Shown here piece after piece: positions 1 to 21,375 of a stretch of 32,491 nt of DNA (positions within the stretch are counted from its first letter, which is position 1; every line of letters starts with the position of its first letter). A model generated the notes under the pieces. The model was not told where the DNA came from, did not search any database, and saw nothing but the letters and a program-made list of their open reading frames with translations. Both the position numbers and the translations under genes were made by a program. The stretch is from Candidatus Regiella insecticola LSR1 (GTDB lineage Bacteria; Pseudomonadota; Gammaproteobacteria; Enterobacterales; Enterobacteriaceae): contig NZ_CM000957.1 of assembly GCF_000143625.1 (NCBI RefSeq), forward strand, positions 1 to 32,491, given 5' to 3'.

Positions 1-840
1 GTGACTAGAAAAAGTTACGTTTTCAATGCCACTCCCGTTTTTACCCCGCCTGCCAGTGAGAAGCCCCGTCCGGCCTTCATCCGTTATGCCATGCAGTGTG
101 CATCTGAGAAAGATGTGGCTCGGAGTGAATTGCTATATATCTTGCAGGGAACTATCCCTACCCGCTCCCGTCGTCTTAATGAACATCGAGCGCGTGCCTT
201 GAGGGCGATGGCGTTAGCCATGCTCTACCATTTTAATATTGCGTCCGGTTTAGTGATGGCGTCGGTGGAACAGCTGTCGGATGAATGTGGTTTGTCGACG
301 GTTTCAGACGCGGGCAATAAATCGATTACCCGAGCTTCCCGTTTACTCACCGATTTTCTCGAACCCATGGGTTTTGTGCACTGTGAAAAGGTTTGGGATA
401 GGATAATGGAAAGCTATATTCCCAAACTCATTACGCTGTCCCCGTTATTCTTCTTGTTATTTGATGTGTCATCAGAAAAATTAGAGAAAGCCCAACATCA
501 GCAAATGGGCTGGATTAACAAAGGTCTGATGGAAAAAGGAGAAGAGTCCATTACCTTAGGAGAAGCGCGTCGTCGAGCCAAAGAGCAGCACATTAAGCGG
601 GCGTTTGAATATCGACAATCCCGTTATGCCATGAATAAAAAACGCAAGCTCGCCCGACGTATGGCCAAGCTAGACGAACAGAAGGCAAAACAGACCCTTC
701 TTCAAAAAATCATTCAGCGCTATTCCCTGGTGGAACTCAATGAGATGGGACCTAAAGGGCTGAGAAATCAGGTCAACATCGAATATCATTATCTTCGAAA
801 GATAGCCAGTACACCCCCGCCAGATATTCCTGTGCATTAA
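1..840 (+). CDS. repA: RepA, IncFII/I-complex family replication initiator
   Basis: Initiator protein that would bind the plasmid origin and start theta replication with host DnaA, acting mostly in cis. The 279 residues match the IncFII_repA family layout: an N-terminal 'ATPVFTPP' segment, a central winged-helix-like region ('SVEQLSDECGL', 'KSITRASR'), and a basic C-terminal half rich in Arg/Lys ('ARRRAKEQH', 'KKRKLARRMAK'). Length is normal for the family (about 280-350). The start is GTG at base 1. If the molecule is circular, an AGGG at 32484-32487 lies just upstream, and the antisense-RNA target and pseudoknot element also precede it, so the start fits family organisation. Control is expected at translation, through the antisense RNA at 32345-32423. 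Family assignment is firm; the incompatibility group is not determined. Confidence 0.93.
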   Translation: MTRKSYVFNATPVFTPPASEKPRPAFIRYAMQCASEKDVARSELLYILQGTIPTRSRRLNEHRARALRAMALAMLYHFNIASGLVMASVEQLSDECGLSTVSDAGNKSITRASRLLTDFLEPMGFVHCEKVWDRIMESYIPKLITLSPLFFLLFDVSSEKLEKAQHQQMGWINKGLMEKGEESITLGEARRRAKEQHIKRAFEYRQSRYAMNKKRKLARRMAKLDEQKAKQTLLQKIIQRYSLVELNEMGPKGLRNQVNIEYHYLRKIASTPPPDIPVH

Positions 841-2320: not shown

Positions 2321-3004
2321 ATGCATTTCAACCCAAAAGACATTTCTCCGCAGATAATTTATTTACTGAACAATCATCCTCATCCCTGCCACATACGCGA
2401 TAAAGCTTCTCGTTATCTTTATATGAATCTCGCGATGCGTGACTTCTTGAATTTACCCACAGGGTTTCCTATTGAAGGGAAAGAGTCATCTGAAATAAAA
2501 CCGGAAAAGGCGGGATTTTTTGAGGGGATCTATCAGAAAGAGGAGGTCGTCATACAAAAAGAAACCCCTGTCTCTTTACTGATAACGGGGCATTTTGGAA
2601 AAGACAATCAAATTCAACCCTATATTGTTGACATTCATCCCTTCTTTGATGAAACAGGTCAGCTTATGGGCACCCTCGCAGAAGCCAGACAATGCCTCTT
2701 TTTTTCACCCTTGGACTATCTCCAGGGCAAATCACCCAAAACATTAACCACTTCAATCCCCAATACGATTTTCACTCAAAATGAACTCCAGATAATTTTT
2801 TATGCTTATCATGCTTTAAGTAGCAAAGAAGTGGGGGAATATTTAAATCTCTCTCATAGAACAGCTGAGAATAAATTACAGGGTATTTATGAAAAAATGG
2901 GGGTTCATCACCAAAAAGGATTCAGAAAATATATTCAAGATAGTGGACTGAATCATTTTATTCCACAAAATCTACTGGCATCGAGTATTCAGCTCATTGA
3001 TTGA
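2321..3004 (+). CDS. PAS-LuxR solo transcriptional regulator
   Basis: 227 residues. The N-terminal part (about 15-130) looks like a PAS-fold sensor: 'HIRDKASRYLYMNLAMRDFLNLP' and 'VDIHPFFDETGQLMGTLAEA' match the ends of PAS domains. The C-terminal part (about 150-205) is a LuxR helix-turn-helix: 'FTQNELQIIFYAYHALSSKEVGEYLNLSHRTAENKLQGIYEKMGV', given here only as its span 2765-2905. No autoinducer-binding domain and no luxI-like gene is visible, so it is a solo. AGGAGG at 2307-2312 fixes the ATG. PAS-LuxR solos are common in insect-associated Enterobacterales. Ligand and targets are unknown. Confidence 0.75.
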   Translation: MHFNPKDISPQIIYLLNNHPHPCHIRDKASRYLYMNLAMRDFLNLPTGFPIEGKESSEIKPEKAGFFEGIYQKEEVVIQKETPVSLLITGHFGKDNQIQPYIVDIHPFFDETGQLMGTLAEARQCLFFSPLDYLQGKSPKTLTTSIPNTIFTQNELQIIFYAYHALSSKEVGEYLNLSHRTAENKLQGIYEKMGVHHQKGFRKYIQDSGLNHFIPQNLLASSIQLID

Positions 3005-3134: not shown

Positions 3135-4109
3135 ATGACTGAAGTATCACATCCCCACGATTCCTTTTTTAAGCGCTCATTACAAGAAAAAAAAATCATG
3201 ATGGATTGGTGTCAAGCACATCTTCCTGAAAAGATGCTGCCATTCATTGATTTGTCAACATTATCTATGGTGTCTAATGAGTTTATCAATTGGCCAAACA
3301 AATTACACAGTGACATTGTTTATAGTTGTCAAATGTATCACCAGCTTGGCTACCTTTATTTATCAGCAGAACATCAATCGACTCCTGATGAAATGATGGC
3401 TTTTCGGATTTTGGAGTATGTCATCAACATCATGGCCTCTCATCTTCGTCAAGGACATCCCAAATTGCCGATGGTGTTACCCCTCGTGCTGTATCATGGG
3501 AATAGCTCGCCTTATCCGCATTCAAATGAGATTTGGGCGTGTTTTGAAAATCCTGAGCTCGCAAAGAAGTGGGCCTTGGGCACCTTTGAGTTAATTGATT
3601 TGACGGTGCAATCAAACGAAGAGATTTACAAGCACGGCTGTGCTTTAGGAATGGAATATTTTTTCAAGCATCAGCGCAGCAAAAAACCGGCGGTTTTTTG
3701 GGTAGAGAAATTACTCAGAGAAGATAAACTCACTAGAATTAGAGAAGAAATTGGTTTTAAATACATCATAGATTTGGTCAAATACAATTTGTATTCTTGT
3801 GGAAATAAGGCCGATCCTGAAGAGTTAGAAAAATTGCTGTCTCTTTGGAAAAAGTATATCCCACAGACAGAGGAGGAAATTATGACATTCGCAGAACAAC
3901 TCGAAGCTAAAGGAATACAAAAAGGTAAACAAGAAGGTTATCAACAAGGTAAACAGGAAGGTTATCAACAAGGTAAACAAGAAGCGACCCGACAACTCGC
4001 AAAACAACTTCTTTCCAACGGTGTACAGTACTCAGTGGTAAAAATATCTACCGGGTTGACAGATAAAGAATTAAAATCACTCTCTCAAAAAAACAATCAG
4101 AATGATTAG
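3135..4109 (+). CDS. Rpn family recombination-promoting nuclease (Transposase_31)
   Basis: A 324-residue protein of the Rpn/PF04754 family, DNA endonucleases of the PD-(D/E)XK fold that stimulate recA-independent recombination in E. coli. Visible are the N-terminal 'HDSFFKRSL' motif, the catalytic pattern D60 followed by E79-x-Q81 ('SAEHQST'), and 'LPMVLPLVLYHG'. The C-terminal tail has the characteristic G-x3-G repeats ('KGKQEGYQQGKQEGYQQ'). The tail is encoded by a 24 bp tandem DNA repeat (3924-3983). The gene is intact and convergent with the JmjC-like gene. A second intact copy (30084) and a relic tail (29925) lie elsewhere in the window. Confidence 0.88.
   Translation: MTEVSHPHDSFFKRSLQEKKIMMDWCQAHLPEKMLPFIDLSTLSMVSNEFINWPNKLHSDIVYSCQMYHQLGYLYLSAEHQSTPDEMMAFRILEYVINIMASHLRQGHPKLPMVLPLVLYHGNSSPYPHSNEIWACFENPELAKKWALGTFELIDLTVQSNEEIYKHGCALGMEYFFKHQRSKKPAVFWVEKLLREDKLTRIREEIGFKYIIDLVKYNLYSCGNKADPEELEKLLSLWKKYIPQTEEEIMTFAEQLEAKGIQKGKQEGYQQGKQEGYQQGKQEATRQLAKQLLSNGVQYSVVKISTGLTDKELKSLSQKNNQND
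3924..3983 (+). repeat. 24 bp tandem repeat inside rpn, 2.5 copies
   Basis: Two near-identical 24 bp units (3924-3947, 3948-3971) plus a half unit (3972-3983) encode repeated GKQEGYQQ. In-frame expansion or contraction by slippage would change tail length without breaking the gene. Confidence 0.9.
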
Positions 4110-4226: not shown

Positions 4227-5345
4227 TCAGTCTTTTTTTATGGATGAGAAATACCAATACCCTTGATTAATCAGCAAGGTTAACGCTGAAATAAAATCAG
4301 TGTCGTTTATGAATTTTATGAGCATAAAGCCATCAATCGTTCTGTGACGTGCCAGCATATTCCAGGCGTCGGCATGATCTGATAACAGGGATTTGCCGTT
4401 GACAAAATAGCGGTTGCCGATGTGTAACATACGAAGCCCCATTAACCGGTGCAATGAATTTCTCTGTTGTAATAAGGTCTGAACCTGTGAAGGGGCGTAC
4501 ACCTCTGCCTCCGGTGCCTTCGGTAACTCATAGGCGGTTTGAGACATCTTTTGAACAAACCAGGTGTCCAGATGGGCTCTTTTCTGGAGTAAGAATTGAC
4601 TCATCATGTCCTGGAGGGCCGTGAGGTCTTGTGGCAGAATTTCGGTGGGATCTTCTCGCAGAAGTAAATCGGGTGAGGGGGAATACTCAATGCCTCGATG
4701 GTTTTCATCTGAAAGCGACTCAGTCCAGTTCCTTATCATGCGAAGGCTGTTGTCTGTCCAAAACTGAAGGCAGTAACTCATGGCCACTTCTGACGAAATG
4801 GCTTCATGGGGAAATTCCTTTGGGATATACAACACATCTCCGGAAATCAACTCTTCATTAATGATGGGCTCAGCAAAGTCGTTCTTGTTATAGTGCTCAA
4901 GCAATAACAATTGATGCCATACACGCCACCGACTACGGCCCATCCCTTGAATAACCAAAATGTCAGACGGTTTAGTCTGAGGGCCAATTCCACCGCCGGG
5001 TACTGAAAAAACCACCGTCAGCTCTTCTGTGTACCAATCGGGGAAAACACGAAACAGAGACAGAAATTCTTCAGCAGCTCTGTGCCAATGGTTTATCGTT
5101 TCGACTTTTAGTGACCAGTTCCGTTGACCTAATGAGGCATACCCATTAAAAGCTTGATGCACTAATTGACATTTTCCGTGACTTCTTTGAATGAGTTGGC
5201 ATTCGAGCGCTTTTTTTATCACCAGTTTTTCCAGCTCTTCAGGCGAAATCGGGTTCATAAAATCAGAAATCGCTTTTTTTAATAATACAGGGTGTTTCTG
5301 CCAGTGATGTTGTAAAAAATCTTCCCAGTTGATGATGAGATGCAT
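4227..5345 (-). CDS. RoxA/YcfD-like JmjC cupin protein, apparently lacking the iron-binding HxD
   Basis: 372 residues, colinear with E. coli YcfD (RoxA), the 2-oxoglutarate/Fe(II) oxygenase that hydroxylates Arg81 of ribosomal protein uL16. Matching landmarks are 'NWEDFLQHHWQKHPVLLK', 'VFSVPGGGIGP', 'IQGMGRSRWRV', 'LYIPKEFPHEA' and a C-terminal winged-helix segment ending 'INQGYWYF'. In YcfD the metal triad is His125-x-Asp127 and His187. Here the first two positions are Gln123 and Lys125 ('GPQTKPSD', read directly at 4971-4994), while the distal His180 is kept. The frame is open and full length, so this is not simple decay. Probably catalytically inactive or repurposed. ATG at 5345 aligns with the YcfD start. 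Confidence 0.85.
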   Translation of the reverse strand: MHLIINWEDFLQHHWQKHPVLLKKAISDFMNPISPEELEKLVIKKALECQLIQRSHGKCQLVHQAFNGYASLGQRNWSLKVETINHWHRAAEEFLSLFRVFPDWYTEELTVVFSVPGGGIGPQTKPSDILVIQGMGRSRWRVWHQLLLLEHYNKNDFAEPIINEELISGDVLYIPKEFPHEAISSEVAMSYCLQFWTDNSLRMIRNWTESLSDENHRGIEYSPSPDLLLREDPTEILPQDLTALQDMMSQFLLQKRAHLDTWFVQKMSQTAYELPKAPEAEVYAPSQVQTLLQQRNSLHRLMGLRMLHIGNRYFVNGKSLLSDHADAWNMLARHRTIDGFMLIKFINDTDFISALTLLINQGYWYFSSIKKD

Positions 5346-5402: not shown

Positions 5403-5637
5403 ACTTGACGAAAAATATTGTTATTTAAATTAATGATATCAAATCAAATATTGATTGTCATTTCTTATTATATTGACGTTTTTATGATTTCTGGTTTAGT
5501 CATTCATTTTATCAACCCGATCGCTCTAACATTGTCAAACTGAACTCTACCCTATCCTGATGTCAGGCTCTCATCACAAAACCGTCAGAATACTTAACAG
5601 CCCAGCCCACACCGAAAGAAAAAATTGGGCGGTTTAA

Positions 5638-6207
5638 AAAGATCCTTTTCTGACCACTGAGCAGACTGAAAGCTATGGCCGCTTCATCGGTGAGCCGGAT
5701 GAGCTTCTGCTGGCACGCTATTTTCATCTTGATGAGGCATACAAAGAATTTATCGGAAAAAGCAGAGGCGATAACAATCGTCTGGGAATTGCCCTACAAA
5801 TCGGGTGCGGGCGTTTTCTGGGCTCCTTTCTCACCGATATGAATCATACTCCTTCCAGAGTCCGGTATTTTATCGCCAGACAGCTCGGGATTCATGATAT
5901 CACCGTGCTGGCAGAATACGGCCAGAGAGAAAATACCCGTCGTGAGCATGCAGCGCTGATACGTCAGCATTATGATTATCGTGAATTTGCCTGGCCCTGG
6001 ACTTTTCGTCTTACCCGTCTTTTATATACCCGGAGCTGGATAAGCAACGAACGTCCCGCTCTGCTTTTCGACCTGGCGACAGGGTGGCTGATGTCGCACA
6101 GGATTATTCTCCCCGGAGCCACCACACTGACCCGACTGATTTCAGAGGTAAGGGAAAAGGCAACGCTGCGCCTGTGGAACAGGCTGGCAATGATACGTAC
6201 AGTTTTT
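5638..6207 (+). pseudogene. Tn3-family transposase, N-terminal fragment
   Basis: The open frame gives 'FLTTEQTESYGRFIGEP', 'ARYFHLDEAYKEFIGKSRGDNNRLG' and 'VRYFIARQLGI', then 'HYDYREFAWPW'. This is the N-terminal domain (DUF4158) of Tn3-family TnpA. It lacks an upstream start: TAA at 5635-5637 lies just before, and the first few residues are missing. It ends after about 190 of roughly 1000 residues at 'WNRLAMIRT'. No inverted repeat or resolvase is visible. It is joined directly, in frame, to the tail of a nuclease gene, so a deletion after insertion is likely. Confidence 0.8.
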
Positions 6208-6425
6208 AAGGAAGATAACACCAACGTAAATGAAACTCAGGTTAGTAACGGTATGGCGTGGGCCTACAGATACCATGAGCAGGTGAGAATCCAGCCATGC
6301 TAGACCTTGAACAGGAGGCTAGGCATAAGCGCCTTGGCCTATGGTCTGATCCGCAATCAAGCATTGTAGAGCCTTGGAAATGGCGGCGAGATAACAATAA
6401 ATTTCGTGCGCACGAAACCGCATAA
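6208..6425 (+). pseudogene. Thermonuclease (SNase-like) C-terminal remnant, frameshifted
   Basis: Reading on from the Tn3 fragment gives 'NVNETQVSNGMAWAYRYHEQV', then after a one-base shift near 6288 'NPAMLDLEQEARHKRLGLWSDPQ' and 'IVEPWKWRR'. This is the C-terminal third of a staphylococcal-nuclease-like secreted nuclease often carried on conjugative plasmids. The 5' two-thirds are gone, replaced by the transposase fragment, and the frame is broken. It marks the left edge of the kor/tra backbone. Its last codons overlap the 16 bp palindrome at 6402-6417. Confidence 0.75.
6402..6417. promoter_or_regulatory. 16 bp palindrome, putative Kor operator, copy 1
   Basis: TTTCGTGCGCACGAAA, a perfect palindrome about 20 bp before the korA promoter. 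The identity with copy 3 extends over 26 bp (6397-6422). Position before the kor operon suggests an operator for KorA or KorB; which protein binds is inference. Confidence 0.5.
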
Positions 6426-6436
6426 TGAATCATTAT
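6422..6436. promoter_or_regulatory. 15 bp palindromic operator candidate at the korA promoter
   Basis: ATAATGA-A-TCATTAT abuts the -35 element of the korA promoter. This is a typical place for autoregulation by KorA. Confidence 0.5.
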
Positions 6437-6439
6437 CTA

Positions 6440-6467
6440 TTGACATCAACAGATGATGATTTATATT
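6440..6467 (+). promoter_or_regulatory. Sigma-70 promoter for the kor operon
   Basis: Perfect -35 TTGACA (6440-6445), 16 bp spacer, -10 TATATT (6462-6467), about 50 bp before the korA ATG. Confidence 0.65.
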
Positions 6468-6517
6468 TAAGGGGAGGCCACAGTTAGGCCGTTGAGTTTC
6501 GGAGGTTAATCCATTGA

Positions 6518-6880
6518 ATGAAAAAACGACTAACGCAGGCCGAATTTGAACATGCCATTTCTAACCTGTCACGCGCACTAAAGCCAGCAAATGTAGAAAT
6601 TGTGAAAGCAATTTTGGTTGATGGCAGAAAGCAAAATGACATGGTTATTGAAACGGGATTAAGCCGTACAGCAATAGCGGCAATGACGAAGAAAGTTAGA
6701 GAAGCGCACAAGTTACATGGCAAACCACCGGCAGGCTGGGAACGTATCGAGCTATGTATACCATCATCAATGGTTCCTATGTTAAGGGCTATGGAAGATG
6801 AGGCGCGTAAACAGGCAAACGCTAAGGGTGAAATGAATGAATATCATAACAGTGACGAATCAGAAGGGCGGGGTAGGTAA
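6518..6880 (+). CDS. korA: KorA/TrfB-family transcriptional repressor
   Basis: 120 residues, opening 'MKKRLTQAEFEHAI' like KorA of IncP plasmids, with the TrfB helix-turn-helix at about 40-70 ('IVKAILVDGRKQNDMV' then 'GLSRTAIAAMTKKV'). KorA represses promoters of the replication, partition and transfer operons. The C-terminal part overlaps incC: the next ATG at 6837 is inside korA in another frame, the classic korA-incC nested arrangement of IncP plasmids. The GGAGG at 6501-6505 is 12 bases from the ATG, rather far. A 15 bp palindrome at its promoter suggests autoregulation. Confidence 0.82.
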   Translation: MKKRLTQAEFEHAISNLSRALKPANVEIVKAILVDGRKQNDMVIETGLSRTAIAAMTKKVREAHKLHGKPPAGWERIELCIPSSMVPMLRAMEDEARKQANAKGEMNEYHNSDESEGRGR

Positions 6881-7589
6881 ATCTACAATCGCCGTACATC
6901 TTGCTATGGCTCTTCAGGAACGAGGCGACAGAGTGCTTTTTGTTGAACTTGATCCGCAGGGTAACGCTAGTAAGACTTTAGAAAAGGCTGGAGGTGTGGC
7001 GGCACTTCAGGCAAGCCAACTTTTTGAAGAACAACAGTTAACTATTACGCCAAATGAAGGCATTACGTTAATCAATGCTGATGCAAAGATGGCTGATATT
7101 GAACGCGCCCCGTTAACGGTTATGTCAACCTTTAAAGACCACCTTACCGCGCTGGCGTCTCAGTTTGATCATTGTGTCATTGATACCCCACCTACCCTTG
7201 GTTTGCGTATGTCATCGGCGCTTATCGTTGCAAATCATGTGTTGTCGCCAATAGAGCTGGAAGAATATTCCATTGATGGCATTACAAAAATGCTGCAAAC
7301 CATTTTTGGTGTTAAGTTGAAATGGAATCCTGATCTGAACTTTTTAGGCATGTTACCTAATCGCTTTAATTCCCGTTCAGAAGACCAGAAGAAAACATTA
7401 ATGAATCTGGTAGAGAACTACGCTCATCTGTTAATTCGAGCGCGGATCGGCATTCGTTCATCAATTCCAGAAGCCCTTTCCGAAGGTATTCCGGTATGGC
7501 AGTTAAAGAAAACATCTGCGCGTGAGGCAGGGAAAGAATTTCAGGAAGCTTTTAAGCTCATTTTTGAAAAAATGGGGGTTGCCAAATGA
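6837..7589 (+). CDS. incC: IncC/ParA-family partition ATPase
   Basis: 250-residue ParA/MinD-type ATPase. The deviant Walker A is at residues 8-17 ('NQKGGVGKST'), switch/Walker A' 'ELDPQGN' at about 38-44, Walker B 'HCVIDTPP' near 112-119. It drives plasmid segregation over the nucleoid together with the ParB-type KorB encoded next. The gene overlaps korA upstream by 44 bp and korB downstream by 4 bp (ATGA), so the three are one operon. Length and motifs are complete; no sign of decay. Confidence 0.9.
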   Translation: MNIITVTNQKGGVGKSTIAVHLAMALQERGDRVLFVELDPQGNASKTLEKAGGVAALQASQLFEEQQLTITPNEGITLINADAKMADIERAPLTVMSTFKDHLTALASQFDHCVIDTPPTLGLRMSSALIVANHVLSPIELEEYSIDGITKMLQTIFGVKLKWNPDLNFLGMLPNRFNSRSEDQKKTLMNLVENYAHLLIRARIGIRSSIPEALSEGIPVWQLKKTSAREAGKEFQEAFKLIFEKMGVAK

Positions 7590-8710
7590 GCGCCAAAAAG
7601 GGATTGGATTTAAGCGGGCTGGATAACTTTTCAGCTTTGATGGGAGGCGCCCCGGCCCTTACTCAATCAGCGGCTTCAACAGACGTACCTGAAGGTTTCG
7701 CAGGAAACCTTATCCGTGTTCCTCTGAAAAAAATTCATAAGGATGCAGATAACGCCAGAAAGACTATTGACCCGCATGAACTCCGTGAGCTGGCCGATTC
7801 AATGAAGTCTGTAAATCCGGCAACCGGAAAACCACGTGGTAACAAAAACCCGGTAAGCCTGAAGCCTCATCCAGATATACCGGGGGAATATATTCTTAAT
7901 GCCGGTGAGCGCCGTTGTGCTGCTGCTGAACTTGCCGAGTTACCTGATGTTCTGGCATTCATTGATGAGGACGCCGACGAATTTGATAATGCAGTCGATA
8001 ACATTCAGCGCGTAGCTCTTTCACCAATTGAAACCGCTACGTTTATCCAGCGCCGGATTGAGAAAGGCGATAAAAAAAGCGCCATTGCGGCCCGGTTGGG
8101 TAAGCCAGCATCGTTTGTATCAGATCATATTATTTTCTTTGATATGGCTGATTGTATTCGCGATATGTACGACAGTGGCCGTGTTGTCTCTATGCAAGCA
8201 ATGGCCCTGTTACATCGCGCCTATAAAAAACACGCTGAAGAAGTAGAGGCTTTTTGTTCCGAAGCACAAGACGAGCTAACCACTGCTGATGTGCGGGCTT
8301 TTTGTGATTCACTCAAAGAGCCGGAATCTAAAGCCGTGAATACGTCAGGTGAAAATGAAGAAGGTCAGGAGCTGCCGAGCGATGCCAACGCATGGATCGG
8401 AGGGAGTGCCGATAGCGACGAACTGGAGAAGGGCGAAGAGCAGCAACCTTTAGTTATTGATGGCGAACCAATCAGCGGCGGCCCATTTTCTGATTTGGAA
8501 GATGAAGCCAGCAAAATCATTGCCGCAGATGAGGTAAGCGACAAGATTAAAAAGGCGATTGTCCAGATTCAATATGATGAACGCCCAGCGCGATTACTCA
8601 CGAACCGCCGAGCTTCTTATGGGTTCGGTTGGATTAAATACGATGATGATGGCAGTGAAGACGAGGTTGATTTAAAGGACGTTAGCGTTGTTGCCATTGT
8701 TGAAGGTTGA
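7586..8710 (+). CDS. korB: KorB/ParB-family partition and repressor protein
   Basis: 374-residue ParB-like protein. The ParB N-terminal domain ('IRVPLKKIHKDADNARK', 'NPVSLKPHP', 'YILNAGERRCAAAEL') covers about 40-135. A helix-turn-helix segment ('KSAIAARLGKPASFVSDHI') lies near 165-185. An acidic linker follows, and a C-terminal SH3-like domain ('RPARLLTNRRASYGFGWIKYDD'). IncP KorB both partitions the plasmid and represses transcription from its 13 bp operators. Here the operator sequence is unknown; the repeated TTTCGTGCGCACGAAA is a candidate. Translationally coupled to incC. Confidence 0.87.
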   Translation: MSAKKGLDLSGLDNFSALMGGAPALTQSAASTDVPEGFAGNLIRVPLKKIHKDADNARKTIDPHELRELADSMKSVNPATGKPRGNKNPVSLKPHPDIPGEYILNAGERRCAAAELAELPDVLAFIDEDADEFDNAVDNIQRVALSPIETATFIQRRIEKGDKKSAIAARLGKPASFVSDHIIFFDMADCIRDMYDSGRVVSMQAMALLHRAYKKHAEEVEAFCSEAQDELTTADVRAFCDSLKEPESKAVNTSGENEEGQELPSDANAWIGGSADSDELEKGEEQQPLVIDGEPISGGPFSDLEDEASKIIAADEVSDKIKKAIVQIQYDERPARLLTNRRASYGFGWIKYDDDGSEDEVDLKDVSVVAIVEG

Positions 8711-8721
8711 GGCGGGCAATT

Positions 8722-8955
8722 ATGAAAAATCGCATAGTGCTAATCAGCGGCGTTATCGCCGCTTTAGTCCTGATTCTTTTTCTGGCGTATCCCTACCTGA
8801 AAAACAGCCAATCATTTTTGGCTGTAGTAGCTATTTTCGTGACGTTTGCAGTATTGGCATTGGCTATACCAGCCAACTTATTTAGCGGGTTGAGGAATTG
8901 GAATCCTTCGATAGGTCAATTCGTCACCTATCCCTTGCGGAACAGCAGCGATTAA
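8722..8955 (+). CDS. Small two-helix membrane protein, 77 aa
   Basis: Two hydrophobic segments (about 5-25 'IVLISGVIAALVLILFLAY' and about 33-55) in a 77-residue protein. No family recognised. It starts at ATG 8722, preceded by GAGGCGGG, rather than at the in-frame TTG 8707. It follows korB by 11 bp and is probably in the kor operon, at the place where IncP-like plasmids carry small accessory genes. Confidence 0.6.
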   Translation: MKNRIVLISGVIAALVLILFLAYPYLKNSQSFLAVVAIFVTFAVLALAIPANLFSGLRNWNPSIGQFVTYPLRNSSD

Positions 8956-8975
8956 GGAAAAACAGACGAGATTGC

Positions 8976-9170
8976 ATGGATAAAAAGGCGAATCAAAATA
9001 TAAAAATTGCAATGATTGGGTTGGTTTTTATGATTCCGGCTGTCGTGTGGTTCGCGTTTACGTGGTACAACAATACCGTCTACGAAAATTCTCTTGCCAT
9101 CATATTAACAATGACACTTACCCCCTTAGCTATGTTGCTGGCTGATTTTCTGTTCAAAAAATACAATTGA
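8976..9170 (+). CDS. Small two-helix membrane protein, 64 aa
   Basis: Starts 'MDKKANQNIKIAM' and has two transmembrane stretches ('IGLVFMIPAVVWFAF', 'LAIILTMTLTPLAMLLADFLF') separated by a short polar loop. The frame is open upstream to a TTG at 8898, but the ATG at 8976 gives the better start. Last gene of the rightward kor operon. No function recognised. Confidence 0.5.
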   Translation: MDKKANQNIKIAMIGLVFMIPAVVWFAFTWYNNTVYENSLAIILTMTLTPLAMLLADFLFKKYN

Positions 9171-9192
9171 TTTATCTATGGCGTTAAAACTC

Positions 9193-9251
9193 GCTGTTGA
9201 TGGGGCCGTAACTAGCAAGCGTAGCGAGTCTGTTACGGTTCCATCAATAGC
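9193..9251. repeat. Long inverted repeat (hairpin, about 20 bp arms)
   Basis: Arm 9193-9212 pairs with 9232-9251: GCTGTTGATGG with CCATCAATAGC (one G-T) and CCGTAAC with GTTACGG; the two bases between could pair as G-U in RNA. The 19-base loop carries CAAGCGTAGCGAGTC, which recurs in similar form at 9255-9269. It lies between the ends of the convergent kor operon and the sprT-like gene. It could be a bidirectional transcript end or a protein-binding site; there is no long T-tract. Confidence 0.55.
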
Positions 9252-9267
9252 CGACAAGCGAAGCGCG

Positions 9268-9969
9268 TCAGTTTGCGACTTCAAAGGCTACGTGACAGTC
9301 TCCACACATCACATTCAGATCAGGTTTTCCCCAAATATTGGTTTCGCACATAGAGCAGGTGTATTTAATCCTGTTTGATTTGTTTTCATTCTTTATCGTC
9401 AATTCGCCATCTTCACCAACTTCAATCCCCATGGCTTCTAAGTCACCGGCGAACTGGTCAGCATTGCCAGATGCAATGGCTTCAAGAAGACGATCCCTTG
9501 CTGGAAATCTATCCATCCATGAACTGGCCACCTTCGATTGCATAGTCGGCCATGCTATCACCTGTTCTGGCCCCGCCGGGTTTCCCCGTTGAGGATGGCA
9601 TTAAACCGATAGACTCCATTTTGTCAGCCCACTCTTTATTGTGGTATCCACGGCGTCCGGGCTTACCAAAATGGTATTGCCAAAGATGGGCCATTTCATG
9701 GACTAGAGTTTGCATAATTTCTTCTGGCGGGTATACGGCAAAATAGGCCGGATTCATTGCTATCTCATCCGTCCGGGTTCCATTGGCGTGAACAAACCTT
9801 TCGGCAGAGAAATAGCCATATGTTTTCTTTTTCCGCTGAAGAGTGATCAGGCAGGGGGGAAGTGAACCATCAAAAAGTGCTTCATTGAAATGGTCATAGG
9901 TAACCTGCAATTCTTCGTAAGTCTGTTGTGTAGGTTTGATTGGCGTATATCTCTCATTTGTTATTGAAT
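9268..9969 (-). pseudogene. SprT-like zinc metalloprotease, frameshifted by a 4 bp duplication
   Basis: Two frames make one SprT-family protein. Upstream frame: 'YDHFNEALFDGSLPPCLITLQ', the active site 'HEMAHLWQYHFG' and a third-ligand His in 'RRGYHNKEW'. Downstream frame: 'MDRFPARDRLLEAI' and a C-terminal zinc ribbon with two Cys-x2-Cys pairs ('CSMCETN', 'CGDCH'). They join at 9509-9520, where ATCC is tandemly duplicated; removing one copy restores '...GQFMDRFPARD'. No in-frame ATG fits the N-terminus: the residue before 'TNERYTPIKP' is ATA, possibly a mutated ATG (start set there). Usual family length would be about 230-240 residues. Confidence 0.75.
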
Positions 9970-10008
9970 TGCACAATCTAAATTGTATCACTTTTAGTTT
10001 GCACAATC
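9969..10008 (-). promoter_or_regulatory. Promoter of the sprT-like gene between direct repeats
   Basis: TTGCACAATC occurs twice, 30 bp apart (9969-9978, 9999-10008; GATTGTGCAA on the coding strand). Between them, on the minus strand, is a -10 TACAAT (9982-9987). Repeats bracketing the -10 look like operator half-sites. Confidence 0.4.
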
Positions 10009-10107
10009 GAAAAAAATACCCGCAAATTTGCCCCTGCTCCTGTTGAGCTGGTTTTGATTTTGGGCCGAGGCGTAGCCGATGGCATGAAATGGCCATTCGT
10101 GCAAAAT

Positions 10108-10123
10108 CTTCGTGCGTACGAAA
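10108..10123. promoter_or_regulatory. 16 bp palindrome, copy 2 (degenerate)
   Basis: CTTCGTGCGTACGAAA, two differences from TTTCGTGCGCACGAAA. Lies upstream of the mob promoter. Confidence 0.4.
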
Positions 10124-10187
10124 AGGATATGGGGGTTATATCTAAAAAAGGCAGGATTCGCAAAATGCTGGCGCATGGCACCGGCTT

Positions 10188-10196
10188 TGCTATAAT
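10188..10196 (+). promoter_or_regulatory. Extended -10 promoter for the mob genes
   Basis: TGCTATAAT is an extended -10 with a perfect hexamer, about 35 bp before the mobC ATG. No good -35 is visible 17 bp upstream, consistent with an extended -10 promoter. Confidence 0.55.
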
Positions 10197-10230
10197 ACCC
10201 CCATCCCTCCATATTGTTAAAGGCCCGCTA

Positions 10231-10746
10231 ATGCCGAGGATCGTTAAGAGAGTTACGCCGGAATTAAAAGAGAAGTGGCAAACCTTTTGTCATGAGCGTG
10301 GTGTTAGTGAATCCGATATGTTGGGACTGTTGCTCGAAAAGGTAACGGCGGGAATAGTGCCTAATGAAGCTAAAGGGTTGGAAGAGCCACGTTCAGATAA
10401 AGTAACGATACGTTTGTCACCGAAAGATATTCACAGCATGACAAAACGCGCCAAGGCTGAAGGGTTTCCCAGCAGAACCACATGGCTTACTAATTTAGTG
10501 TTGGCGACCTTGAGCAAAGAGCCGGTATTAACTGACGCCGAAGTTAATGCTTTGCGGGGTTCCAATCGTGAGTTGGCCGCTATAGGTAGAAACTTGAACC
10601 AGATAGCCAGAACGTTGAACGTAGAGTTTCGTGATAGCGATAAGCTGAACAAAGAATTAATAGACCGGCTGCTTGAACAGATAGATGGCCATCGAGACAA
10701 GGTATCTAACCTTATTGATAGAAACATGAATCGTTGGGGAGGTTAA
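10231..10746 (+). CDS. mobC: MobC-like relaxosome accessory protein
   Basis: 171 residues from ATG 10231 ('MPRIVKRVTPELKEKW'). The middle part is ribbon-helix-helix-like ('DKVTIRLSPKDIHSMTKRAKAEGF') and the C-terminal half has the MobC signature 'LRGSNRELAAIGRNLNQIARTLN'. Such proteins bind oriT and help the relaxase open the DNA. The stop lies inside the ribosome site of the relaxase gene, so the two are coupled. The frame is open upstream, but that part runs through the promoter and is not coding. Confidence 0.82.
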   Translation: MPRIVKRVTPELKEKWQTFCHERGVSESDMLGLLLEKVTAGIVPNEAKGLEEPRSDKVTIRLSPKDIHSMTKRAKAEGFPSRTTWLTNLVLATLSKEPVLTDAEVNALRGSNRELAAIGRNLNQIARTLNVEFRDSDKLNKELIDRLLEQIDGHRDKVSNLIDRNMNRWGG

Positions 10747-10748
10747 CC

Positions 10749-11735
10749 ATGACCGTTGATAGCTTGTTAAAACTCCTTGAGGGGAAAGTAAAGACTAAAT
10801 CCAACAAAACTACAGACCTGAAAGGCAAGGCTAGTCACATAGCTAATCGTGCTTCTGAAGTTATGGTTAAGGTGAGTGGCAATGCAAAAGGCCCAGCTCA
10901 CGTTAAAGCCCATTTAGATTACATCAGCCGTAATGGAAAGCTGGAACTTGAAAATGAACGCGGTGAAATCTTGAGGGGAAAGGACGACGTTAAAGCCGTT
11001 CATAAAGAATGGACTCAGGATCAAGGTAAGACACGTGCTAACACACGTGATACAACTAACGTAGTGCTATCCATGCCGAAAGGAACAGAAGCGAAGGCCG
11101 TGAAAGAATCGGCTAGAGCATTTGCAAAAAAACAATTTGGCGAGAACTACCAGTATGTTTTTGCATTTCATGAAGACGTTGATCACCCGCATGTTCATAT
11201 CAGTATAAAAACCTTGGGTTTCGATGGCAGGCGCTTACATGTCAAAAAAGGCGATCCTCAAATATGGCGTGAAGGATTTGCTAAAGAGCTTCGCGCTAGA
11301 GGGGTTGAAGCTGAAGCAACATCCCGTGCTACACGTGGCGTAGTTAAGAAAGGAATTCATCAGGCGATTATTCATATCCGCAAACGGGGATTAACCCCTG
11401 AAGTCGATAAAGCTAAAATAAAAGAGATCGCTGAAGAGTTTAAAGATAAGAGGGACGGAAAGCCTGAAAAAGTGAAACTGTGGGAAGAGAAAATACAGGC
11501 GAGGCAAAGGGAAGTTAGAAAAGGGTGGTTATCTGCTGCGCAGGAACTTAACCAAAGTTCAGAACCAAGTGATAAAAAGTTGGCCGCTGATATTGTGAAC
11601 TTTGTTAATACCATGCCACCTATGGCTACTGAACGGCATGAAATGGCTAAAGCTGTCAGTCAGAAATTAGCAAGCCAGCAGCCCGGTAAAAAGCAAAACT
11701 CAACTGGCAGAGATAATGATCAGGAAGAACGATAA
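10749..11735 (+). CDS. MOBP-type relaxase
   Basis: 328-residue relaxase/mobilization nuclease (PF03432-like). Motif I tyrosine is likely in 'AHLDYISRNGK' (near residue 55), and motif III is 'HEDVDHPHVHISIKTLG' with the three-His metal site. It would cut one strand at oriT and lead it into the recipient. ATG 10749 is preceded by GGGGAGG at optimal spacing; the upstream TTG at 10734 is not needed. Much shorter than RP4 TraI: only the relaxase domain plus a charged C-terminal tail, and primase functions are encoded separately on the other strand. Sequence looks intact. Confidence 0.85.
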   Translation: MTVDSLLKLLEGKVKTKSNKTTDLKGKASHIANRASEVMVKVSGNAKGPAHVKAHLDYISRNGKLELENERGEILRGKDDVKAVHKEWTQDQGKTRANTRDTTNVVLSMPKGTEAKAVKESARAFAKKQFGENYQYVFAFHEDVDHPHVHISIKTLGFDGRRLHVKKGDPQIWREGFAKELRARGVEAEATSRATRGVVKKGIHQAIIHIRKRGLTPEVDKAKIKEIAEEFKDKRDGKPEKVKLWEEKIQARQREVRKGWLSAAQELNQSSEPSDKKLAADIVNFVNTMPPMATERHEMAKAVSQKLASQQPGKKQNSTGRDNDQEER

Positions 11736-11736
11736 A

Positions 11737-11752
11737 TTTCGTGCGCACGAAA
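11737..11752. promoter_or_regulatory. 16 bp palindrome, copy 3
   Basis: TTTCGTGCGCACGAAA, perfect, starting one base after the relaxase stop. Same 26 bp context as copy 1 (11732-11757). Confidence 0.45.
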
Positions 11753-11770
11753 CCGCACAGGGGAGGGGAG

Positions 11771-11798
11771 ACAGGCGTGCTTTTCCCGCCTGTTTTTT
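11771..11798 (+). terminator. Intrinsic terminator of the mob operon
   Basis: ACAGGCG (11771-11777) and CGCCTGT (11787-11793) form a 7 bp stem with a 9-base loop, followed by T residues to 11798. It ends mobC-relaxase and overlaps the 3' end of the convergent ardC relic. Confidence 0.75.
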
Positions 11799-12921
11799 AA
11801 CGCTCTAAATCCGTATCTTGTTTTAGACCTTTTTTGTTTACTACAACCATATTGGTTTCCTTTATTTTTATTTCCGTATCTGGTTTTTCATGGGTAAGTC
11901 TGGACTGTATTTTTTCCATGAATTTAGCCCGATCTTCTGCGTTGTTAAAACGCTCTGCAAGCTTATCAGCGAGTTTTAAGGCAATGCGCTATCATTCCCC
12001 TCTTTTGGGGCTGTATCGCTTTCTGGTGCGTTTTGAGGGGCTTCCTGCGCCTTTTCTTTCTCATGGCTCAAAAGGTTGGAACTAATAGCTTCAGCGTCTT
12101 TTGCTGCCCTCAGTATTTCTTTTAACGTAAGCGTCGTGTTGTCCGGGATCATGGCCTATTTGTAATTCGTCACCAATCATCAAAGAGGCGATTTCAGCCC
12201 TCAGTTCTTTTTTTGCGTAGGACTCAGAACCAAAGCGCCCGGTTAAATCTCTATCCAGACGGCTTTTGTGTCCGGTTGAATGGCCAGCTTCATGCAATGC
12301 AGTGGCATAGTAATTATCTGCGCTGGGGAATTGGCTACGTTCCGGGAGGTGTATCGAATCTGTAGAAGGGCGGTAGAATGCGCCATCAGCTTGATCATTC
12401 TTGATAGGTACGCTCATGGCCAGCAAGATATTTTCGGCCCGTTCATGGCGTTCCCAATCGGGTTTTGTTGCCGTAACTTCTAATGGCGGTAAGCCCTGAA
12501 TCTGTTCCGCGTTAAATACCACTGCTGAAAAAACTTTTGGGCGTTCAAGCTTCACGGTAATCATTTTTTTCTTACCGTTATCATCCAGTACCGGTTTCCC
12601 TTTATCGTCGAGATTTGGTATTGTATCGGAAAACTTCCAGTATTGAACCAGCGTACCTTTTTCGCCTTTTTGAACCTGCGCATTCACGCTTTGGGCTTGC
12701 TTATACGTCATCCAGCGGGGATCTGTACGCTGTTGCATAGCCAGCCATAAGGCGTTGGCTCCCTTGTAACGAGTACCGCTAACCGGGTTGTGCGGCATTC
12801 TGCTTGAACCCGGTTCCCATGGTTTTTGCCATGGCGCTGTTCCTTCCTCAAGCTGTTTTATCAGACGATCAGCAATTTCTTCATAGAATGGTTTCTTCTC
12901 TTTATCGTCGCCTCTGGCCAT
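11797..12921 (-). pseudogene. ArdC-like antirestriction/metalloprotease-like gene, frameshifted
   Basis: From ATG 12921, the N-terminal ArdC ssDNA-binding domain ('FYEEIADRLIKQLEEGTAPWQKPW', 'NPVSGTRYKGANALWL', 'WMTYKQAQ') and the zincin-like domain with 'HEAGHSTGH' read normally to residue about 265. Near 12123 the frame breaks: TGA ends it at 12091, but the next frame continues 'LKEILRAAKDAEAISSNLLSHEK'. A second shift near 11985 returns to the first frame, giving 'LKLADKLAERFNNAEDRAKFMEKI' to TAA at 11797-11799. Relatives have extra residues after 'GQHDAYV', so a small deletion is likely. The N-terminal 276 residues, with both domains, could still be made. ArdC proteins protect incoming ssDNA from restriction. 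Confidence 0.75.
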
Positions 12922-20464: not shown

Positions 20465-21375
20465 AGACCTCTTCGGAAACTATCATTTATCTAATTTCCA
20501 TGTTATAAATTGCAGCAATCAGATTAAATCTTAATCCAAAACGTTTTCGCCTGTTTCGATAACGGTCTGATACAATTTTAAATCTTTTAATCATACCAAT
20601 GACATGTTCGTTTAATACACGCTGGCTTGATAACGCACGATTGTTGCGTTTATCTTCTTTTGTTAAGGGATTTTTCTTTGTCTTTTTCTTAGGCAACGCC
20701 GAGTTTGAATGAATCTTGCCAAGCCCTTGGTAACCTGTATCGGTAACTGTTTTGATGTCAGGATGTATTCGCACACCAGACTCCTTAAACAACCTAAAAT
20801 CATGGCGCCTCCCATTCGTAAAGCTTGTACAGATGACTGCTTTACTTTTTTTATCAACGAGCACTTGTGTTTTTAAGGTGTGTCGTTTCTTTTTTCCTGA
20901 GTAAAACGGCTTTTGTTTTTTTGGGGACGTTCAATCGGCGTTTCTGTGGCATCAATAAGAACCAGCTCATACTCCCTATCCCTTTTTAATACAGCTTTGC
21001 GTCCAGGTAGGGCAAAATCAGGATGCTTTATTAGCGTATTCTCTATCCATTTAATCGTTTCATAGCATGTGCTCTCACTCACGCCATAGCTTTGGCTGAC
21101 ATGAAAATAAGTGCGATATTCTCGTATATACTCCAGTGCCATTAATAAGCGCTCTTCTAAACCCCGCTTGGGTTTCCGACCTCCTTTCCCTTGCTTACTC
21201 TTATCTGCTTCATTCAATATCTTTATCATCTTTTCAAATGTACTGCGTTTAACACCCGTTAAGCGACGAAATTTTTCCTCTTCCAGTACTTTTATTACTT
21301 CATATTTCATGGCGGCTCCTTGTTCAGGAGTGTTTTACCAAAATTCCTCATGAATGCTAGTTTCCGAAGAGGTCT
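20465..21375 (-). mobile_element. IS5-family insertion sequence, 911 bp
   Basis: Ends are near-perfect inverted repeats beginning AGACCTCTTCGGAAACTA (differences start at base 19: TCATT versus GCATT). Flanks carry a 3 bp direct repeat, AAT on the + strand (20462-20464, 21376-21378). Removing the element and one AAT restores the virB9 frame '...NHIFIKPKGDQ'. It encodes one transposase in two frames. Complete and likely recent. Confidence 0.9.
20487..21310 (-). CDS. IS5-family DDE transposase made by -1 frameshifting
   Basis: First frame 21310-20873 (145 aa) has an N-terminal HTH domain ('RLTGVKRSTFEKMIKIL', 'YFHVSQSYGVSESTCYETI') and the first catalytic Asp in 'LIDATETPIERP'. Second frame 20487-20925 continues 'KPFYSGKKKRHTLKTQVLVDKKS', second Asp 'TVTDTGYQGL', Glu in 'RVLNEHVIGMIKRFK'. 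The switch lies at A_AAA_AAC (20915-20921), a classical -1 slippery heptamer, so programmed frameshifting is likely; a mutation is the alternative. The ribosome site AGGAG sits in a hairpin CTCCT-gaaca-AGGAG (21316-21330) that would block translation from outside transcripts. Confidence 0.85.

Follow-up and report, generated by a model that had tools for sequence, protein, structure and literature searches.

A plasmid gene of Candidatus Regiella insecticola LSR1 for a RoxA-like protein with replaced iron-site, cosubstrate-position and pocket residues

RoxA, its closest described relatives and the plasmid locus

RoxA is a conserved ribosome-modifying oxygenase, and the Escherichia coli enzyme (RoxA/YcfD; PDB 4ccl, 4lit, 4nub) is the 3-hydroxylase of Arg81 in uL16. 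The dimerisation domain consists of three helices in intimate contact (PMC4295552). For the ycfD of Rhodothermus marinus (4csw; 4cug with a uL16 fragment), the pocket of the target arginine is defined by Y137 and M120, the arginine can hydrogen-bond D118 and S208, and in ycfDs generally the betaIV-betaV loop is assigned to substrate binding (PMC5862942). Activity of this enzyme falls to background in the first-ligand variant H133A (PMC5862935). In Hydra Riox1/2, a lysine that lies 15 residues after the first metal histidine contacts the C5-carboxylate of 2OG (PMC6006756), and by analogy the arginine found at this position in RoxA would do the same job. Among other subfamilies, the human proteins AspH, AspHD1, PHF2 and hairless combine an oxygenase fold with an incomplete metal triad; AspH itself is active, its variants with a single histidine ligand remain substantially active, and atypical natural cases exist (PMC8252765). 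Given AspH, loss of the motif alone would not prove inactivity. RoxA-type genes also occur on plasmids: among the 40 listed of 77 matching records, those of Cronobacter, Citrobacter and Klebsiella show 35-39% identity, and a Sphingobium gene shows about 28% to P0009.

The gene studied here, which we call pseudo-RoxA, lies in a window of 32,491 bases, one whole contig of the Regiella insecticola LSR1 genome (2,067,400 bases, 173 contigs). The genome was reported as 2.07 Mbp in five scaffolds and 168 contigs, with pRILSR1 as a circular 32.5-kb plasmid scaffold that carries a virB-like conjugation system (PMC2955975). By its length and its IncFII-type repA, the window is presumably this plasmid. 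The same source found repA of pRILSR1 and of Hamiltonella pHD5AT very similar (dN 0.0217, dS 0.2597) and inferred horizontal transfer of plasmid genes between Regiella and Hamiltonella (PMC2955975). The Hamiltonella strains A2C, AS3 and ZA17 have been grown in vitro (PMC5841374). The features of the locus are collected in Table 1.

Pseudo-RoxA is an uninterrupted frame of 372 open codons with full-length homology to E. coli YcfD (E 2.7e-87, 39% identity). The JmjC_2 core (PF08007, 58.4 bits) and the RoxA-like winged helix (PF20514, 44.4 bits) both passed the cut-off of 22 bits, and NCBIfam had no match at E <= 0.001. A monomer model predicts that the protein adopts the three-part YcfD fold, and the domain order is also that of the active R. 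marinus enzyme. Chance resemblance is excluded, because the match to YcfD is so strong, the motif is broken in all readable relatives and omega is well below 1. A frame or base-call error was ruled out as well, given the 372 open codons and the presence of the same CAG ACT AAA codons in two Hamiltonella copies. The likeness to E. coli RoxA ends at the active site: the HxD motif, the arginine at the 2OG position and the arginine pocket are intact in RoxA only, and in pseudo-RoxA the betaIV-betaV loop is shorter and variable and the dimer segment appears to have changed and then been held. Like the AspH group, pseudo-RoxA has an oxygenase fold with an incomplete triad, but it has lost cosubstrate-position and substrate residues in addition.

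Table 1. Features of the window that are discussed in the text (nucleotide positions of the window; residue numbers of the window protein)
Feature	Position	Strand	Remark
IncFII-type repA	1..840	+	also on Hamiltonella plasmid
PAS + LuxR-type HTH regulator	2321..3004	+	neighbour common to Hamiltonella 59-kb plasmid
Rpn-family (YhgA-like) recombination-promoting nuclease	3135..4109	+	mutL at this place on Hamiltonella plasmid
Pseudo-RoxA gene, 372 aa	4227..5345	-	JmjC_2 core, helical dimerisation segment, RoxA-like winged helix
RoxA-like winged helix (PF20514), residues 252-366	4248..4592	-	domain match
Dimerisation segment, residues 201-251	4593..4745	-	most constrained part of family
Codon 192, former pocket Ser replaced by Cys	4770..4772	-	4csw alignment
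Codon 180 CAT, distal iron His (H180), kept	4806..4808	-	alignment with RoxA
betaIV-betaV loop, residues 143-161	4863..4919	-	substrate-binding insert in ycfDs; most variable segment of family
Codon 138 AGT (Ser138), Arg expected at 2OG C5-carboxylate position	4932..4934	-	YcfD R140 by alignment
Codon 127, former pocket Tyr replaced by Ser	4965..4967	-	4csw alignment
Codons 123-125 CAG ACT AAA (QTK), former iron site, H-x-D expected	4971..4979	-	YcfD alignment
Codons 108-110, two former pocket positions (Asp to Glu108, Met to Thr110)	5016..5024	-	4csw alignment
Promoter-like element ATGACA-N17-TATCAT, TG before second hexamer	5423..5461	-	conserved across copies

The window reads repA, a small ORF, PAS-LuxR, Rpn nuclease and pseudo-RoxA, and a 59-kb Hamiltonella plasmid reads repA, a small HTH-like ORF, PAS-LuxR, mutL and pseudo-RoxA. 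The mutL (mismatch repair) gene that adjoins pseudo-RoxA there is full-length, and a near-identical one lies in a chromosomal island (L109:3239-5071, minus strand, and L110:8275-10107, plus strand). PAS-LuxR genes form a large family in these symbionts, with 13, 29, 20 and 9 matches in the genomes G000, G040, G191 and G055, respectively. The Hamiltonella chromosome of G191 has 11 pseudo-RoxA and 16 PAS-LuxR places, counted after merging neighbouring matches by hand; four of the former have one of the latter within 2 kb, and none of 5000 random placements reached four. We did not adopt a functional pair of the two genes, because islands copy both and PAS-LuxR is abundant in G040, which lacks pseudo-RoxA.

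The plasmid is a chimera. Its backbone (5647-12000; partition, mobilisation and SprT-like genes) shares ~95% identity with plasmids from Citrobacter, Klebsiella and E. coli, and for the region before it the nearest relatives known are in Hamiltonella. An N-terminal piece of a Tn3-family transposase lies just before the partition genes (5839-6303, plus strand), and a DDE transposase split into two ORFs lies within the conjugation genes (20487-21310, minus strand).

Active-site residues across the pseudo-RoxA family

Searches of protein collections returned 25 relatives of the pseudo-RoxA type, which are Hamiltonella/Williamhamiltonella or metagenome proteins and in many cases fragments; the remaining four matches (P0016, P0017, P0021 and P0030) are more distant and RoxA-type. 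Our alignment comprised 18 family rows, the window protein and 17 of the 25 relatives, the other eight being short or frame-broken. The 58 unique RoxA rows are P0021 and fetched loci drawn from three sources: 40 relatives, six second copies, and a scan of 198 genomes of the bacterial family, in which 126 had a match and those that scored best contributed rows. YcfD residue numbers were obtained by counting along the alignment.

In a maximum-likelihood tree of 67 rows, midpoint-rooted for drawing only, the nine full-length pseudo-RoxA members formed one clade (support 100/100, stem 2.39 changes per column), and this Regiella/Hamiltonella clade fell where the enterobacterial roxA sequences branch. 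An origin from the second enterobacterial RoxA paralogue was unsupported, the clade grouping, on its long stem, with roxA and not with L016 or L040-L045. A viral origin was rejected after a viral contig search with two patterns gave no relative. Three phage records match pseudo-RoxA, and both that were fetched (L117, L118) keep HxD; the gene at L117:271-1434 is an HxD RoxA-type gene in an Acinetobacter phage assembly, possibly cellular DNA within that assembly, and phrog_1978, a full-length PHROG family, also matches pseudo-RoxA. PADLOC, consulted for membership of a defence system at E values up to 0.1, returned nothing for either P0001 or P0009. The literature searched, with limited coverage of subscription papers, gave no description of such a protein, and we drew nothing decisive from PMC9994133, PMC7530917 and PMC6180509.

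The iron triad of active RoxA/YcfD, HxD...H, reads QTK...H in the window protein, with Q-T-K aligned to H125-L126-D127 of E. coli YcfD. The first histidine and the aspartate are present in 58/58 sampled RoxA rows each. Twelve family rows span the iron site; their first-His column holds Gln (11) or Tyr (1) and their Asp column Lys (6), Glu (3), Arg (2) or Gln (1). P0015 and P0023, which lie outside the alignment, read QTK too, so that both residues are missing in 14/14 readable family proteins; the site is unreadable in P0024, which breaks off there, and in P0029, whose frame is lost at that point. Among DNA copies, the aspartate is missing in all 11 distinct readable ones of the window and the Hamiltonella genomes G191 and G055, which read QTK (5), QTR, QTE, YAK (2, one of them decayed), RAK (decayed, with the frame lost before the iron site) and H-I-K. 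Since every readable relative has a broken motif, a private recent mutation was ruled out. The H-I-K copy belongs to HaCicurvipes (L033:1501-2403, that is G055:C4:31451-32353), contains many stops and has CAT ATT AAA where an intact copy has CAG ACT AAA. Because several RoxA have His-Ile before the Asp, this copy may preserve an intermediate of the loss, in which the aspartate would have gone first. The distal histidine is found in 58/58 RoxA rows and in 14/16 readable family rows; it is Arg in P0003, an intact copy, and Tyr in P0010.

The losses extend to the cosubstrate position and to the pocket of the target arginine. Residue 15 after the first metal histidine is Arg in 58/58 RoxA rows; the window protein has no basic residue there, and its serine recurs in 15/16 readable family rows, the one Arg belonging to the truncated P0025. 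Mapping Y137, M120, D118 and S208 by alignment to 4csw gave positions 127, 110, 108 and 192, and all four residues are replaced (S127, T110, E108 and C192), the change from Asp to Glu at 108 being conservative. Three of the replacements are largely fixed in the family (T110 in 10/10, S127 in 10/12 and C192 in 14/16 rows), and position 108 is variable (E 6, A 2, S 1, D 1). Among 90 columns that are at least 90% conserved in RoxA, the family keeps 45 and loses 45, and 19 further columns are invariant in the family and below 50% in RoxA. We read the 45 lost and 19 newly invariant columns as signs of probable re-specialisation rather than simple decay.

These data bear out much of what the first-pass annotation had read from the window: the full-length, intact RoxA/YcfD-like frame, the replacement of HxD by QxK, and a plasmid-borne pseudo-oxygenase, which, judged by the 14 readable proteins, would belong to a non-HxD clade. 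Sister plasmids with HxD, which would have spoken against such a clade, were looked for and none was found; the closest case is the broken H-I-K copy, with the histidine only. Its statement that the flanks are kept was right for the upstream GGG.GP and for H180 but not for the GRxRW arginine region, where the arginine at the 2OG position has become Ser138. By these residues, and by the selection described below, pseudo-RoxA qualifies as a putative pseudoenzyme clade derived from RoxA, in which catalysis is probably absent.

Copies in the symbionts and selective constraint

Pseudo-RoxA is the single PF08007 match of its own genome, and a second genome of the same species (G040, 3.3 Mb, one contig) has no PF08007 match. 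In the two Hamiltonella genomes, G191 (contigs of 2,110,331 and 59,032 bases) and G055 (HaCicurvipes, also labelled G041), a query with HxD RoxA returned only places that the family profile had also found, and the copies that cover the site are without HxD. Absence of RoxA is not peculiar to these hosts, as 72/198 genomes of the bacterial family are without a match (0.4-3.3 Mb among the 20 listed of the 72). G191 carries three intact full-length copies (C1:1051547, C1:172623 and C2:5256), a copy with a single stop (C1:1279992) and several fragments, and G055 carries one intact copy and several broken ones; P0004 is a named Hamiltonella protein on a 59,032-base contig. The many decayed copies mean that the gene is dispensable in places. 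Because C1:1279992 is 98-100% identical to the plasmid copy across the first 360 alignment columns and 94-100% identical to the window copy across columns about 450-810, the copies recombine, also across the gene pools of both symbionts. The family also points to plasmids of Regiella and of Hamiltonella having exchanged the gene. C1:172623, the most RoxA-like copy of G191, lies after genes that we take, by eye, to be tolQRAB-pal-cpoB; this position speaks against an origin at the phoQ-roxA-pepT place. Near a chromosomal Hamiltonella pseudo-RoxA lies a 1053-aa ORF with a Peptidase_M91 (effector protein) domain (L108:2456-5617, plus strand).

Upstream of the gene, the promoter-like element lies 73-80 bases ahead of the start codon in the window and in seven Hamiltonella copies or former copies, and it is missing from C1:172623. 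Eight of ten sites with at most four mismatches precede the start codon; the other two do not. The promoter consensus alone is uninformative (3 sites found vs 3.5 in shuffles), and it is conservation, not the match to the consensus, that supports this putative element.

Comparison of the window copy with the intact HaCicurvipes copy gave dN 0.127, dS 0.663 and omega 0.19 (bootstrap 0.14-0.27), and across all 10 pairs of the five intact copies omega was 0.16-0.33; these are Nei-Gojobori counts on copies that have recombined. The purifying selection that the first-pass annotation had supposed is thus seen between Regiella and Hamiltonella copies, with no omega near 1. Four decayed copies, each compared with its closest intact copy, gave omega 0.55, 0.51, 0.26 and 0.33, which is higher on the whole than for the intact pairs, yet overlapping.

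We then compared segments of the protein, using seven disjoint RoxA pairs picked from 48 with dS 0.3-1.1 and two disjoint sets of two pairs for the family. In RoxA, the segments that make up residues 1-200 had omega 0.03-0.06 and the winged helix 0.12, and the highest value, 0.205, was that of the dimerisation segment. The family showed its lowest values in the dimerisation segment (0.053 and 0.077) and its highest in the betaIV-betaV loop (0.581 and 0.378), with a winged helix that is not unusually constrained (0.34 and 0.19). For nonsynonymous vs synonymous changes in the dimerisation segment against the rest, Fisher tests, which treat changes as independent, gave opposite directions: an odds ratio of 0.20 for the family (p 9e-5, first set of two disjoint pairs) and of 2.1 for RoxA (p 6e-7, seven disjoint pairs). 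Pairwise identity followed the same division, at 0.906 in the family vs 0.659 in RoxA for the dimerisation segment and 0.463 vs 0.825 for the betaIV-betaV loop (9 family, 36 RoxA rows). As judged from these substitution patterns, constraint is shown to have shifted away from the catalytic core and onto the dimerisation segment.

Proposed role and competing explanations

We propose that pseudo-RoxA is a RoxA-derived protein whose metal, 2OG and pocket residues have been replaced and whose role is that of a dimeric scaffold for protein binding, not that of an oxygenase, a reading that we hold with slightly more belief than doubt. The dead enzyme would have been retained for binding, through a predicted dimer interface that is held tighter than other segments; the helical segment expected of a homodimer is present in the window protein and highly conserved within the family. 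What selection keeps could be this interface, perhaps between different copies in one cell, and the variable former substrate loop might set the binding target of each copy. Because the winged helix is not unusually constrained, the case for a scaffold depends mainly on a single segment. The retention of H180 in 14/16 rows is more than a wholly unused site would predict and counts against it, as do the active AspH variants with one histidine ligand (PMC8252765) and the broken Hamiltonella copy that keeps the first His.

That retained histidine is also what an oxygenase, or a metal or 2OG binder, would need if it worked with His180 and new ligands. The one-His variants of AspH, substantially active, and the atypical natural cases lend this reading some substance (PMC8252765). 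We nevertheless consider it very unlikely: the other ligands have been lost, and with them the 2OG-position arginine and the substrate pocket, the Asp position is occupied by Lys, Glu, Arg or Gln, and the intact P0003 lacks even the distal His. Binding of uL16 in the manner of RoxA, one of two roles suggested by the first-pass annotation, is weakened by the replaced residues 108, 110, 127 and 192. In a broader form, in which an inactive RoxA would keep binding uL16 or late 50S particles and serve in assembly without hydroxylating, this role is unlikely, though it would fit the retained predicted fold, winged helix and dimer segment. The uL16 of the own genome also keeps EVRMGKGKGN, which, from a by-eye comparison with the E. 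coli protein, is presumably the R81 loop. For YcfD itself, specific binding of Rpl16 is described and sequestration is proposed as a role (PMC4295552). The replacement of all four target-arginine residues and a betaIV-betaV loop that is the most variable segment of the family speak against this role, although pseudo-RoxA may bind uL16 by another surface.

Decay poses a different challenge to the scaffold reading, since the gene might be a functionless passenger of mobile elements, on its way to decay, with a low omega that dates from a time when it still had a function. Its place among transposon and plasmid parts, the many broken copies in both Hamiltonella genomes and the overlap of decayed-copy omega (0.26-0.55) with that of intact copies all agree with this. 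We regard it as distinctly improbable in view of intact frames in two genera at omega 0.16-0.33, the 19 columns that the family, unlike RoxA, keeps invariant, the conserved upstream element and a selection focused on another segment than in RoxA. The second role suggested at first, competition with the chromosomal enzyme, has no visible target in these hosts, because no resident HxD RoxA was found in the own genome, the second genome of the species or the two Hamiltonella genomes. A related possibility, mixed dimers that act as dominant negatives on an active RoxA in some other host to which the plasmid has spread, gains a little from the backbone, which at about 6197-12000 shares ~95% identity with plasmids from Citrobacter, Klebsiella and E. 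coli. It is scarcely credible when set against the same lack of HxD RoxA in four searched genomes of both host groups, a dimer segment strongly different from that of RoxA, and the plasmid records: all 77 matches are below 60% identity and none is of the pseudo-type, a set from which records near the own genome are possibly excluded. Four plasmid genes that were fetched (L114, L115, L116 and L119) keep HxD and, unlike pseudo-RoxA, the Arg 15 residues on; two of them lie in a phoQ-roxA-pepT segment. Both originally suggested roles are weakened, and we propose the dimeric scaffold in their place.

The scaffold reading can be extended, tentatively and with much more doubt than belief, to a multigene family in aphid symbionts, carried on plasmids and islands, whose products would be recognition proteins that dimerise. 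In it the interface would be frozen, the former substrate loop would be shuffled and diversified as copies recombine, and different pairs would bind different partners.

Pseudo-RoxA would be a bacterial RoxA pseudoenzyme clade in which selection has measurably shifted from catalysis to dimerisation. Proteins annotated as cupin/JmjC in these symbionts are unlikely to hydroxylate uL16. The family would also offer a tractable case of the re-use of an oxygenase fold after the death of its active site, E. coli RoxA being both solved and assayable. If true, the recognition-family reading would make a dead ribosome-modifying enzyme the source of a repertoire of binding proteins.
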